From Rhodopseudomonas sp. BR0M22 (GTDB lineage Bacteria; Pseudomonadota; Alphaproteobacteria; Rhizobiales; Xanthobacteraceae): 64,000 nucleotides of DNA. Made by a program: the position numbers and the translations under genes. The DNA is taken from contig NZ_QUMK01000015.1 of the NCBI RefSeq assembly GCF_010907035.1, positions 1 to 64,000 of the forward strand, given 5' to 3'. The notes beneath the pieces were generated by a model. It did not search any database. It was not told the origin of the DNA and was given only the letters and a program-made list of their open reading frames with translations. Below, piece by piece: positions 46,018 through 52,087 of the stretch. How positions within the stretch are numbered: position 1 is the stretch's first letter; every line of letters starts with the position of its first letter.

Positions 46018-46046
46018 TTGTCGCTGGAGCGGAAAAGCGCTATATC
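46018..46046 (+). promoter_or_regulatory. Candidate sigma-70 promoter of the rimP-nusA operon
   Basis: TTGTCG at 46018-46023 and TATATC at 46041-46046 are separated by exactly 17 bases, giving an expected transcription start near 46053. This is the best hand-found promoter in the window and lies 60 bases before an intrinsic terminator and about 170 before rimP. Confidence 0.6.
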
Positions 46047-46061
46047 GGCGTGACTTCGAAA

Positions 46062-46112
46062 TTCTCATACGATCCGTATCGAGAGTGGGCCCTCCGGGAC
46101 CCGCTCTTTTTT
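46062..46112 (+). promoter_or_regulatory. Leader attenuator/terminator upstream of rimP-nusA
   Basis: A small hairpin ATACG-ATC-CGTAT (46066-46078), flanked by CTC/GAG extensions, precedes a strong intrinsic terminator: GAGTGGG with CCCGCTC plus an inner CC/GG pair (46083-46106), then six T residues (46107-46112). The GAG shared by both hairpins allows mutually exclusive folds. It sits between the promoter and rimP, so readthrough must be controlled for the whole essential operon to be expressed. Confidence 0.7.
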
Positions 46113-46219
46113 ATTACCTGGATCGTAGGACATGGACCGGCGCGCTTTCGGAAGCGCAGCCTCATTCACCTGCTTGATACCGCTTACCGCCGAGACACCA
46201 TAACGCTTTGACCCAGGAC

Positions 46220-46999
46220 ATGACCGAGCCGACCCCTGCCATTCCGGAAACCGACGACTTGGCCGAACCGCGCCTGGTAATCGAACCGGGCGTCGCGGCG
46301 CGGTTCGGGGCGGTCGCCGAGCCCGTTTTGCTGGCAATGGGATACCGCCTGGTCCGGATCAAGGTGTCGGGTGAAGCCGGCTGTACGGTGCAGATCATGG
46401 CCGAGCGGCCGGACGGCACCATGCTGATCGACGACTGCGAAGCGGTCTCGCGGGCGCTGTCGCCGGTGCTCGACGTCGCCGACCCGATCGACCGCGCCTA
46501 TCGGCTGGAGATTTCGTCGCCTGGTATCGACCGGCCGTTGGTCCGTCGTTCGGATTTTGCCCGTTATGCCGGGCACTTGGTCAAGATCGAGATGGCGGTG
46601 CCGCACCAGGGCCGGAAGCGGTTCCGCGGCCTGCTGGACGGCGTCGACGGCGATGCCGTGCGGATTCAGCGGGAGGAGGCCCCGAAGGGCGAAGACCCGT
46701 TGGTGATGTTGCCGATGCACGATATCGGCGATGCCCGGCTGGTGCTGACCGACGAGCTGATCGCCGAGTCGATGCGCCGCGGCAAACAGGCCGAACGCGA
46801 CCTCAAGCAGAGCCTCGGGCTGGCCCCGGAACCGCCGCCGCACGCCAAGCGCAGCGATCCGACCAAGAGCCAGGCTCCGAAGCGCGGCGCCAAGGCCGCC
46901 AAAGCGGCCGCCAAGCCGACACCGCAGAACACCAAGAAACACCGCCTTGCCGCCGAACGGGCGCGGCGTGGCGAGATCGACACCTCTGAGGGAGACTGA
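46220..46999 (+). CDS. rimP: Ribosome maturation factor RimP
   Basis: 259 residues from ATG 46220; a TTG at 46208 is an alternative. N-terminal domain [29 protein letters not shown] and the family mark [45 protein letters not shown]-terminal lysine/alanine-rich tail (about 205-259) extends beyond the usual length, as in related species. Needed for 30S assembly; first gene of the rimP-nusA-infB operon, 2 bases before nusA. Confidence 0.94.
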
Positions 47000-47001
47000 C
47001 C

Positions 47002-48615
47002 ATGGCCGTCAGCGCCAATAGGCTGGAACTGCTGCAGATCGCCGATGCGGTGGCTCGCGAGAAAACCATCGACCGCGGCATCGTGATCGCCGCGATGGAA
47101 GACGCGATCGCCAAGGCGGCGCGTGCCCGCTACGGCTCGGAGACCGACGTCCACGCCGAAATCGACCCCAAGAAGGGCGAGCTGCGGCTGTCGCGCCACA
47201 TGCTGGTGGTCGAGCAGGTCGAAAACCCCGCCAACCAGATCTCGCTGAAGGACGCGCAGCGCGCCAATCCCGGGGCGCAGATCGGCGACACCATCGCCGA
47301 CACCCTGCCGCCGTTGGAGTACGGCCGCATCGCCGCCCAGTCGGCCAAGCAGGTGATCGTGCAGAAGGTCCGCGAGGCCGAGCGCGACCGCCAATACGCC
47401 GAGTTCAAGGACCGCATCGGCGAAATCGTCAACGGCGTCGTCAAGCGCGTCGAATACGGCAGCGTGATCGTCGATCTCGGCCGCGGCGAAGCCATTATCC
47501 GCCGCGACGAGATGCTGCCGCGTGAGTCGTTTCGTAACGGCGACCGGGTTCGTGCCTATGTGTTCGACGTCCGCCGCGAAACCCGCGGTCCGCAGATCTT
47601 CCTGTCGCGCACCCATCCGCAGTTCATGGCGAAATTGTTCGCCCAGGAAGTGCCGGAGATCTACGACGGCATCGTCGAGATCAAGGCGGTCGCCCGCGAT
47701 CCGGGCTCGCGCGCCAAGATCGGCGTCGTGTCGCGCGACTCGTCGGTCGACCCGGTCGGCGCCTGCGTCGGTATGCGCGGCTCGCGCGTCCAGGCGGTGG
47801 TGAACGAGCTGCAGGGCGAAAAGATCGACATCATCCCGTGGTCGCCGGACATTGCCACTTTCGTGGTCAACGCACTGGCGCCGGCCGAGGTCTCCAAGGT
47901 CGTGATCGACGAAGATCGCGAGCGGATCGAGGTTGTGGTTCCGGACACCAATAACCAATTGTCTCTTGCGATCGGCCGTCGCGGCCAGAACGTGCGGCTC
48001 GCCTCGCAGCTCACCGGCTGGGACATCGACATCCTGACCGAGAGCGAAGAATCCGAGCGCCGCCAGGCCGATTTCGAGAAGACCACCCGAGCCTTCATGG
48101 ACGCGCTGAACGTCGACGAAGTCGTCGGTCAGCTGCTCGCCTCCGAAGGCTTCACCTCGGTCGAAGAACTCGCGCTGGTCGACTCCCGGGAACTCGCTTC
48201 GATCGAGGGCTTCGACGAAGAAACCGCCGGCGAACTGCAGGCCCGTGCGCAGGAATATCTCGATCGGGTCGAATCGGAGATCGAGGCGCGGCGCCTGGAG
48301 CTCGGCGTCGAAGACGCCCTCAAGGACGTCCCCGGCGTCACCTCGAAGATGCTGGTCAAGTTCGGCGAGAACGACGTCAAGACCGTCGAGGATCTGGCCG
48401 GCTGCGCCACCGACGATCTGGTCGGCTGGACCGAGCGCAAAGACGGGGCCGAGCCGGTAAAGTATCCGGGCATTCTCGACGGACTGGAAATGTCGCGCGA
48501 GGACGCCGAACACCTGATCATGCAGGCCCGCGTCAAGGCCGGCTGGATCGACGAGTCGGAGCTGGCCTCCGACGACGAAACTGCGGACGAAGCGTCCGAA
48601 GCCGAAGCGGAGTGA
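47002..48615 (+). CDS. nusA: Transcription termination/antitermination protein NusA
   Basis: 537 residues. N-terminal RNAP-binding domain ([28 protein letters not shown]), S1 domain near 130-200 ([32 protein letters not shown]), two KH domains ([47 protein letters not shown]) and C-terminal acidic helix-hairpin-helix repeats. Modulates pausing, termination and rRNA antitermination. Its own operon carries a leader terminator, which makes feedback by NusA plausible. Confidence 0.97.
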
Positions 48616-48675: not shown

Positions 48676-49455
48676 ATGCTTGCTGCCGTACCCGGCGCAG
48701 ATCTCGACGACGGACCGCGGGCCAAGACGCCCGCGACCGAGCGGATGTGCGCGGTCACGCGGCAGGTGCGGCCGATCGGCGAACTGATCCGGTTCGTGCT
48801 CGGCCCGACCGGTGAGGTGGTGGCCGATCTGAAACGCAAGCTGCCCGGCCGGGGCCTGTGGGTCACGGCGTCGCGGGAGATGGTGACGCAGGCGGTTCGC
48901 CGCCGCGTCTTCGCCAAAGGTTTCAAGCGCGACGTCAAGGCGCCGGCGGATCTCGCCGACGCGATCGAACGCCTGTTGGCGCGGTCGGCGCAGGACGCGC
49001 TGGCGATTGCCGCCAAGGCCGGCCAGGTCGTCTGCGGCTTCGGCAAGGTCGAAACCGCGCTGAAGAGCCGCGAAGCGGTCGCGGTGATTCACGCCACCGA
49101 CGGCGCCGCCGATGGAATCCGCAAGCTGGACGCGCTTTGTCGGCAAATCGACGAAGAGGCGGCCGGGGGTCGCAAATTTCCTCGGATTGCTGCGCTCAGC
49201 TCTGCAGAATTGGATTTGGCATTAGGGCGGTCAAATGTGATACATGCTGCGCTGCTTGCGGGCACGGCCGGACAAACATTCCTGTCGCGCTGCCAGATCC
49301 TGGTCCGATACCGGCTGGCGGGCGATGGCAATGCCGATGCGGCCACGGCAGGAACGCCGATCGACACGCCGAAAGACGCTGCTGACCTAGACGCCGCTGA
49401 CGAAGTCCGTGCGAACGCGCACAACGTTGAGAGATTGGGACTACTGAATGGTTGA
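48676..49455 (+). CDS. YlxR (DUF448) RNA-binding protein fused to an L7Ae-like domain
   Basis: 259 residues. The N-terminal YlxR part has [44 protein letters not shown]; the C-terminal L7Ae-like region is around 95-185 ([47 protein letters not shown]). Standard partner of nusA and infB. Its last eight bases overlap the infB start. Confidence 0.92.
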
Positions 49456-52087
49456 TACGAAAACTCCTGGCGACAAGACTCTGACGATGCCGACCAAGAC
49501 CTTGACGCTGAAGCCGCGCGTCGAGCAGGGCGTCGTGCGCCAGAGCTTCAGCCACGGCCGTAGCAAGCAGGTGGTGGTCGAAAAGCGCGGCAAGCGTCGC
49601 GTTGGCGGCGACGAGCCGGCCGCACCGGCGGCTCCCGAGGTCGCGAAGAAGCCCGCGCCTCCCGCGCCGAGCCGGCAGCAGCAGTCGCGCCCAGCGCCGC
49701 AGCAGTCGCGCAGCGGTATGGTTCTACGCACCTTGACCGAGGACGAGCGCACCGCCCGCGCCACCGCGCTGGCCGACGCCCGCGTGCGCGAGGTCGAGGA
49801 GCGCAAGCAGGCCGAGATCGAGGCTCAGCGCCGCGCCGAGCAGGAGAAGATCGAGAAGGCCGAGCGCGAAGCCGCCGAAGCCCGCCGCAAGGCCGAGGAA
49901 GAGCGTCACCGCCTGGAAGACGAAGCCAAGCTCAAGGCCGAGACCGAGGCCAAGAAGCGGTTTGGCGACGCCGAGCCGGCCAAGAAGCCGGCCCAGACCA
50001 CCACTGCGGCGCCCGCGCGGCCTGCGACGACGACCACCGCGCGCACGGCGACGACGACGCCCGGCCGCCCGCCGGCCGTCGCAGCCGAGGCTGGCGACGA
50101 CGATGAGGCGCCGCGGATGATCCGCCGTCCGGGCGGCCCCGCCCGTCCGGCGCCGGCACCGAAGCAGCCGGCCGCCAAGCCGGGCGCGTCGAAGCAGCGC
50201 GGCCGTCTGACCGTCGTCACCGCGCTCAATGCCGACGACGTGCGCGAACGTTCGATCGCCTCGTTCCGTCGCCGCACCCAGCGGCTGAAGGGGCACGCTT
50301 CGAACGAGCCGAAAGAAAAGTTGGTGCGTGAAGTCGTTATTCCCGAAGTGATCGCCATCCAGGAACTCGCCAACCGCATGTCCGAACGTGCGGTCGACGT
50401 GATCCGCCTGCTGATGAAGCAGGGCGCGATGCACAAGATCACCGACGTCATCGACGCCGACACCGCCCAGCTGATCGCCGAAGAACTCGGCCACACCGTC
50501 AAGCGCGTCGCCGCGTCGGACGTGGAAGAGGGGCTGTTCGACGTCGTCGACGACACCACCGACACCGAACCGCGTTCGCCGGTGGTGACCGTGATGGGCC
50601 ACGTCGACCACGGCAAGACCTCGCTGCTCGACGCGCTGCGCCACGCCAACGTGGTGTCGGGCGAAGCCGGCGGTATCACCCAGCACATCGGCGCCTATCA
50701 GGTGACCTCGCCGGAGACCGGCACCAAGATCACCTTCATCGACACCCCCGGCCACGCCGCGTTCACCGCGATGCGTGCCCGCGGCGCCAAGGTCACCGAC
50801 ATCGTGGTGCTGGTGGTGGCCGCCGACGACGGCGTGATGCCGCAGACGATCGAGGCGATCAATCACGCCAAGGCCGCCGGTGTTCCGATCATCGTGGCGA
50901 TCAATAAGATCGACAAGCCCGACGCCAAGCCGGACCGCGTCCGCACCGACCTGCTGCAGCACAATGTGCAGGTCGAATCGATGGGCGGCGACGTGGTCGA
51001 CGTCGAGGTTTCGGCCAAGAACAAGGTCAATCTCGACAAGCTGCTCGAGATGATCGCGCTGCAGGCCGAAATCCTCGATCTCAAGACCAACACCACCCGC
51101 CCGGCCGAAGGCACCGTGATCGAAGCCAAGCTCGATCGCGGCCGCGGTCCGGTCGCCACCGTGCTGGTCCAGCGCGGCACCCTCAAGGTCGGCGACATCA
51201 TCGTGGCCGGCGCCGAGATGGGCCGCGTCCGCGCGCTGATTTCCGATCAGGGCGAGACCGTGCAGGAAGCCGGCCCGTCCGTGCCGGTCGAAGTGCTCGG
51301 CTTCAACGGTCCGCCGGAAGCCGGCGATCGCCTGGCGGTGGTCGAGAACGAAGCCCGTGCCCGCGAAATCACCGACTACCGCGCCCATCAGAAGCGCGAG
51401 AAGTCGGCGGCCACGGCGAGCGGCATGCGCGGCTCGCTCGAGCAGATGATGAGTCAGCTCAAGACCTCGGGCCGCAAGGACTTCCCGCTGATCGTGAAGG
51501 CGGACGTGCAGGGCTCGCTCGAAGCCATCCTCGGCTCGCTGGAGAAGCTCGGCACCGACGAAGTCGCGGCGCGTATTCTGCACGCCGGCGTCGGCGGCAT
51601 CAGCGAGAGCGACGTAACGCTGGCCGAAGGCTTCAACGCCGTCATCCTCGGCTTCTCGGTTCGTGCCAACAAGGAGGCGGCCGCGGCCGCCAAGCGCAAC
51701 GGCATCGAGATCCGCTACTACAACATCATCTACGATCTGGTAGACGACATTAAGAAGGCGATGAGCGGTCTGCTCGCGCCGACCCTGCGCGAGACCATGC
51801 TGGGCAATGCCGAAATCCTGGAGATCTTCAACATCTCCAAGGTCGGCAAGGTCGCCGGCTGCCGTGTCACCGACGGCAATGTCGAGCGCGGCGCCAATGT
51901 CCGCCTGATCCGCGACAACGTCGTGGTTCACGAAGGCAAGCTTTCGACCTTGAAGCGCTTCAAGGACGAAGTGAAGGAAGTCGTCGCCGGCCAGGAATGC
52001 GGCATGGCGTTCGAGAACTACACCGACATGCGGGCAGGCGATATCATCGAGTGCTACCGCGTCGAGACCATCCAGCGCTCGCTGTAA
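49448..52087 (+). CDS. infB: Translation initiation factor IF-2
   Basis: 879 residues. The N-terminal 290 residues are a charged, alanine/lysine/proline-rich linker with a coiled-coil-like stretch ([21 protein letters not shown]). G domain motifs: GHVDHGKT (384-391), DTPGH (432-436), NKID (486-489). C-terminal beta-barrels bind fMet-tRNA. Promotes 70S initiation complex formation. Confidence 0.97.

Follow-up and report, generated by a model that had tools for sequence, protein, structure and literature searches.

A candidate transcription attenuator before rimP-nusA in Rhodopseudomonas, with a terminator stem that appears to accompany nusA in several bacterial phyla

We found that the leader of the rimP-nusA-ylxR-infB operon in Rhodopseudomonas sp. 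BR0M22 is likely a transcription attenuator with competing folds, in which a terminator hairpin (P2) and an upstream hairpin (P1) lay claim to the same bases. Judged by analogy and by gene association, feedback by NusA would be the likeliest mechanism, and we consider it probable, with some reserve, that the whole arrangement works as such an attenuator with NusA tipping the balance to P2. According to sections of a review (PMC12288461), neither E. coli nor B. subtilis can do without NusA, and its level must therefore be held.

Anatomy of the leader and its two folds

Features are given in coordinates of the window, i.e., the whole 64,000-nucleotide stretch of DNA that was analysed:

46018..46046, + strand: promoter, with −35 TTGTCG at 46018-46023, a 17-nt spacer and −10 TATATC at 46041-46046 (from the sequence)
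46061..46086, + strand: P1, predicted competing (antiterminator-like) hairpin, AUUCUC/GAGAGU plus AUACG/CGUAU with a bulged C (predicted fold; covariation elsewhere)
46063..46067, + strand: UCUCA, an instance of the CUCA motif of the host's order (enrichment in leaders)
46081..46108, + strand: P2, terminator hairpin GAGAGUGGG-CCC-UCC-GGG-A-CCCGCUCUU with a central U.G pair 46086/46103 (sequence, folding, conservation)
46107..46112, + strand: U-tract, six T (from the sequence)
46220..46999, + strand: rimP, the operon's first gene, ATG at 46220 (Pfam RimP_N and DUF150_C)
47002..48615, + strand: nusA (Pfam NusA_N, S1, KH_5)
48676..49455, + strand: ylxR-like gene (Pfam YlxR; the Ribosomal_L7Ae match is weak)
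49448..52087, + strand: infB (Pfam IF-2, IF2_N, GTP_EFTU)

The promoter, which the original prediction had read as TTGTCG-N17-TATATC, holds up: its spacing is read directly from the sequence, the site has a promoter-like score of 11, and the −10 TATAT is kept in 16/16 members of the host genus. Promoter signal is also conserved upstream of the hairpin in relatives, with a best score of 10.31 compared to 7.72 in shuffled sequence (p = 7e-15; 83 representative leaders) when scored with a −10 consensus, TATATT, that was picked after the leaders had been seen. Transcription would be expected to start at about 46052-46053. The strong promoter-proximal hairpin followed by six T residues, likewise predicted, was confirmed as P2, with arms at 46081-46089/46100-46108, inner pairs at 46090-46092/46096-46098, a bulged A at 46099 and a fold energy of −18.8 kcal/mol (z = −3.74 against dinucleotide shuffles). 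As had been proposed, the next gene after it is rimP, whose Pfam-supported reading frame begins 107 nt after the last T of the U-tract, as read from the sequence. P2 is not the terminator of the gene upstream of the leader, since this DUF2336 neighbour (Pfam) is divergently oriented. In the 5.3-Mb genome, the only match to GAGTGGGN4-24CCCGCTC is at the leader, compared to 12 matches to the reversed pattern, and this uniqueness, together with the conservation of hairpin and promoter signal in relatives, places the hairpin above chance.

A generic promoter/terminator scan flagged neither this promoter nor P2; under its stated rules, the hexamers are too far from consensus, and the stem is interrupted by the bulged A. 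The scan returned a terminator-like site at 46302-46323 within the rimP coding sequence (0.6 expected), which is probably a chance occurrence. No Rfam family reached threshold in the leader; weak matches to sbrA, L20-leader and Hairpin, all below gathering scores, were taken as chance.

Until the 3' arm of P2 is made, the predicted minimum-free-energy fold of the leader is P1 (AUUCUCAUACG/CGUAUcGAGAGU), at −9.4 kcal/mol, an energy that is not unusual (z only −0.75). The idea that the short ATACG/CGTAT hairpin shares bases with the terminator failed for the 5-bp hairpin itself (46067-46071/46075-46079) but stood for its extension AUUCUC/GAGAGU (46061-46066/46081-46086). Because P1 and P2 both use 46081-46086, six bases of the P2 5' arm, the two mutually exclusive folds that had been suggested are indeed possible. 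Upon modeling, full P2 with the apical part of P1 came to −21.0 kcal/mol and full P1 with a trimmed P2 to −18.3 kcal/mol, i.e., the predicted full-P1 and full-P2 folds are exclusive and near in energy, with a gap of 2.7 kcal/mol; the whole 67-nt leader folds at −21.0 kcal/mol (z = −2.85).

Pairing of the GAG with upstream sequence had a mean of 0.735 over 83 leaders compared to 0.632 in dinucleotide shuffles (p = 1.4e-4), a modest gain, as 13/83 leaders fell in the top tenth of their own shuffles (8.3 expected) and the GAG was more than 50% paired in 69 real leaders versus 70 shuffled means. Covariation was examined in two lineages selected by eye. In 11 family members (alignment A2; CUCA/UGAG plus apical helix), 92.1% of P1 cells are paired, with 3 pairs changed on both sides (equalled in 60/500 shuffles) and 5 double-change cells (equalled in 3/500), and in 12 leaders of one genus (alignment A3; UCGA/UCGA plus GGCUC/GAGCC), 98.1% of cells are paired, with 2 pairs changed on both sides (equalled in 2/500). 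The P1 sequence is unlike between the two lineages. Given the modest gain in GAG pairing and the origin of the covariation in two eye-chosen lineages, we regard the P1 competitor as probable rather than proven.

CTCA is present in 52/83 representative leaders of the host's order compared to 13.7 expected, and in 7/61 alphaproteobacterial leaders outside it compared to 7.3 expected; enriched inside and at expectation outside, the motif is thus special to the host's order. Part of its conservation is not due to pairing, since 22 leaders retain the A of CUCA opposite a base other than U. The CUCA-containing motif might resemble the NusA boxC-type KH site of M. tuberculosis rrn RNA. CTCA is enriched in the rimP leaders, but a conserved CTCA was absent by eye from 14 rrn leaders of the host genus, a set in which L266 has one CTCA and L261 contributes just 66 nt of leader, and we make no claim for such a site. 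Portions of the SuhB paper (PMC6614801) relate the opening of stem-loops at M. tuberculosis boxC to the binding of NusA. Two further observations concern short motifs: the rrn leaders L261-L274 carry GGTGGGACC, resembling the P2 5' arm, near the 16S start, and a doubled motif, CTCATGATCATCTCA, lies 5' of the hairpin in the rimP leaders L047, L057, L060, L061, L182, L225 and L245.

In the mechanism that we propose, RNA started at ~46053 would fold P1 (46061-46086) first, and, as the 3' arm emerges, P2 (46081-46108) could displace the base of P1; a full P2 adjoining the U-tract would then stop transcription near 46110-46112. With P1 holding GAGAGU, P2 would be six pairs shorter and off the U-tract, and the polymerase would continue into the operon. 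NusA promotes hairpin formation in the RNA exit channel, as stated in part of a review (PMC12288461), and by aiding such hairpins it would favour P2, so that abundant NusA would lower its own synthesis.

The original prediction offered an alternative of its own, a constitutive terminator with a second promoter at 46113-46219 driving rimP, and in E. coli, the leader region is known to hold several promoters (parts of PMC6511841). The comparison of intervals disfavours it: among 52 representatives with at least 60 nt between hairpin and rimP, this interval scored 6.87 compared to 7.03 in shuffles, with a score of at least 10 in 1 leader, whereas an equal length upstream of the hairpin scored 10.02 compared to 7.62, with at least 10 in 33 leaders, all for the one promoter type scored, such that other types would be missed. 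The best candidate 3' of the hairpin here, TTGATA-19-CATAAC, is poor as well, and we hold a second promoter to be highly improbable. As promoter signal is conserved upstream only, operon expression most likely must pass the terminator.

Conservation in the order and hairpins without a U-tract

RimP was found in 61/61 genomes (the host and 60 relatives), in 86/96 genomes of the class, and in 138/140 of the order. Loss of the hairpin in close relatives, which the original prediction had named as a point against it, was not seen, with P1 and P2 kept in 16/16 members of the host genus. A GUGG-type hairpin is present in 166 of 176 distinct rimP leaders of the host's order; the script located 165 of these and L172 was placed by hand, as were L048, L200 and L140. 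The remaining ten comprise L051 and L181, with C-G for U.G, L058, with a variant stem, L059 and L246-L249, with another short terminator, and L171 and L243, where none was recognised. L059 and L246-L249 belong to one small-genome family, in which the different short terminator, e.g., GGCTTTCTCGAAGGCC in L246, replaces the GUGGG hairpin.

In an alignment of 82 of the 83 representatives (A1; L055, with a long loop, was left out), the central pairs G-C, U.G, G-C, G-C are invariant, and the other eight P2 pairs all show changes on both sides (8/12 compared to 4.4 in shuffles, with 2/500 as high). P2 cells are paired at 91.6%, compared to 27.7-61.0% when the alignment was slid, and the 17 double-change cells are not above shuffles (17.4). 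The base opposite the U of GUGG is always G and never A (163 leaders plus L048 and L200). As the hairpin locator demanded GTGG, with a bonus for CCCGC, the invariance of the U is partly built in; its partner was free to be A. Among other alphaproteobacteria, a G-rich/C-rich hairpin with a U-tract was found in 61/79 leaders by a loose filter and a finder that favours such stems (79 of the 84 matches outside the host's order were taken; G104, G129, G132, G133 and G139 were left out). GUGG opens the arm in 45 of these 61 hairpins, and many have U-A for U.G.

Over the 9 nt that follow the arm, the T run is at least 4 in 147 of the 166 hairpins, 3 in 7 and at most 2 in 12, and from these last two groups we conclude that termination is not the whole function everywhere. 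Two genera, chosen by eye as U-less, were compared by ungapped identities. In the first (12 of 13 leaders; L283, wrongly cut, was left out), the two arms show 98% and 90% identity and the 20 nt downstream 51%; in the second (11 of 13; L143 and L293, with a different arm, were left out), the arms show 95% and 97% identity and the 20 nt downstream 42%. One leader of the U-less sets, L280, has four Ts several bases off the stem. Some other genera of the two families retain the U-tract, and 3/26 U-less leaders have some other terminator-like site within 300 nt before the RimP match. With arms conserved and downstream sequence diverged in both genera, conservation of the P2 stem appears to reflect something more than termination at a U-tract. 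A hairpin-pause consensus was considered for the U-poor leaders, 14 and 16 of 19 of which have T at positions +10 and +11 beyond the stem; we do not claim it, since both are present in only 1/11 leaders of the second genus.

The high identity of the arms next to diverged downstream sequence, along with the G that always faces the U of GUGG, would also fit a hairpin whose main role is to be recognised by the NusA-polymerase complex or to make it pause, with termination added in lineages that have a U-tract. We nevertheless think this unlikely, with 147/166 hairpins keeping a run of at least four Ts, a locator that required GTGG and rewarded CCCGC, a C-G pair at the wobble position in L051 and L181, and no pause consensus in the second genus. 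An attenuator with competing folds remains our preferred reading of the leader.

Association of the stem with nusA across phyla

A scan of the pattern GAGTGGGN4-20CCCGCTCTTTTT over a genome collection of 84,980 species gave at least 118 stretches. Among the matches listed, tblastn placed 99/118 in front of rimP, 12 at a distance of 10-31 nt from a downstream nusA, and 7 in other positions, i.e., 111/118 stand before rimP or directly before nusA; one of the 7, a Mesorhizobium locus of 332 bases (L320), looks like a cut rimP leader. In 80 listed loci, every rimP that was found has nusA behind it, apart from L384 and L386, where the locus stops early. Nine of the 12 nusA-first loci are among the 80 titled rows of the matches listed, all of them Verrucomicrobiota by title, and the hairpin precedes rimP and nusA in two clostridial rows and one Izimaplasma row. 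A control pattern with C-G occurred at 13 places in 11/299 genomes of the phylum, with rimP or nusA in the 3-kb locus at 0/13, a control that is only qualitative because the two scans differ in collection. By these sequence matches, the core stem precedes nusA in several bacterial phyla, and nusA appears as the shared gene.

Two side observations come from the same loci. In the nusA-first loci L331, L371 and L423, GTTTTCAC before the hairpin is complementary to GTGAAAAC after the U-tract, such that an outer helix could enclose the terminator. In L318 (Chryseobacterium), a near copy of GAGTGGGCTTTAGCCCGCTC with GAGCGGG comes ~100 nt after it, so that the hairpin is repeated in a locus where neither rimP nor nusA was matched.

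The gene association bears on what the attenuator might sense. RimP is named as the other candidate in passages by Naville and Gautheret (PMC2965389), and instead of NusA the leader might sense RimP, YlxR, IF2 or some further factor. We rate this as improbable: in 12 of the 118 matches listed, nusA begins at most 31 nt after the hairpin, with no room for rimP, and NusA gains as candidate sensor because the hairpin stands directly before nusA where rimP is not between. Gene order also weighs on the notion of a separate ~60-nt small RNA gene acting in trans, with P2 as its terminator. A promoter, a short structured RNA and a terminator are present, and terminated leader could accumulate, but the P1 sequence varies by lineage, the hairpin stays in front of rimP or nusA in different phyla among the matches listed, and the leader is free of Rfam families at threshold; such a gene strikes us as very improbable.

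A bolder version of the NusA attenuator can be put forward tentatively, as a possibility that we would not yet favour. Here, the fixed P2 core of G-C, U.G, G-C and G-C would be read by sequence by polymerase-bound NusA, would mark the nusA operon in several phyla and would work in U-less leaders, making the stem primarily a NusA sensor and secondarily a terminator, with CUCA and P1 as a tunable antiterminator of the host's order. Our data indicate that a single stem, in which the wobble pair does not change, accompanies nusA in several phyla, and, as natural leaders exist with and without a U-tract and with differing competing hairpins, what NusA recognises in its own leader becomes testable.

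Comparison with known systems

In B. subtilis, NusA autoregulation is reported, in work by Mondal et al. 2016, to need no antiterminator. It proceeds via NusA-stimulated termination in the leader, as summarised in part of a review (PMC12288461). The likeness to our case is a leader terminator of a nusA-holding operon with the same predicted logic; the NusA effect was measured there and is proposed here. In E. coli, NusA represses its own operon, as noted in passages of PMC2965389. The metY-rimP-nusA leader there holds a tRNA gene and two terminators, t1 and t2, before rimP (parts of PMC6511841), the last in the sequence being UGGGCUUUAGGCCC plus U7, whereas the leader here has one terminator with P1.

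The closest counterpart is the rimP-leader, which passages of Naville and Gautheret 2010 (PMC2965389) place 5' of rimP-nusA-infB, with a GGGc..gCCC stem (G-rich 5' arm, C-rich 3' arm) and a U-stretch, 4-130 nt from the gene. Our leader likewise lies in the 5' UTR of rimP-nusA-infB, within that range at its 107 nt from the ATG, and has the U-stretch (T6, 46107-46112); GGGc(...)gCCC is matched by GUGGGC...GGGACCCGC, although a bulged A sits between its g and the CCC. The same passages describe no visible antiterminator in the rimP-leader except in several gammaproteobacteria. Differences here are the P1 competitor with the CUCA motif, the U-less state of some relatives and the hairpin that also stands directly before nusA. 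A search with Rfam RF01770 (rimP), which resembles the leader in name and gene context, gave nothing above the 47-bit cut-off in the genome, with the best two hits, of 19.2 and 17 bits, on other contigs. Within the parts of the open-licence papers covered, we recognised no treatment of the rimP-nusA leader in alphaproteobacteria. Overall, the leader is a variant of the known rimP-leader attenuator, to which our analysis adds the order's P1 competitor with its CUCA motif, the fixed U.G core, nusA as the apparent shared gene, and two genera whose hairpins have no U-tract next to the stem.
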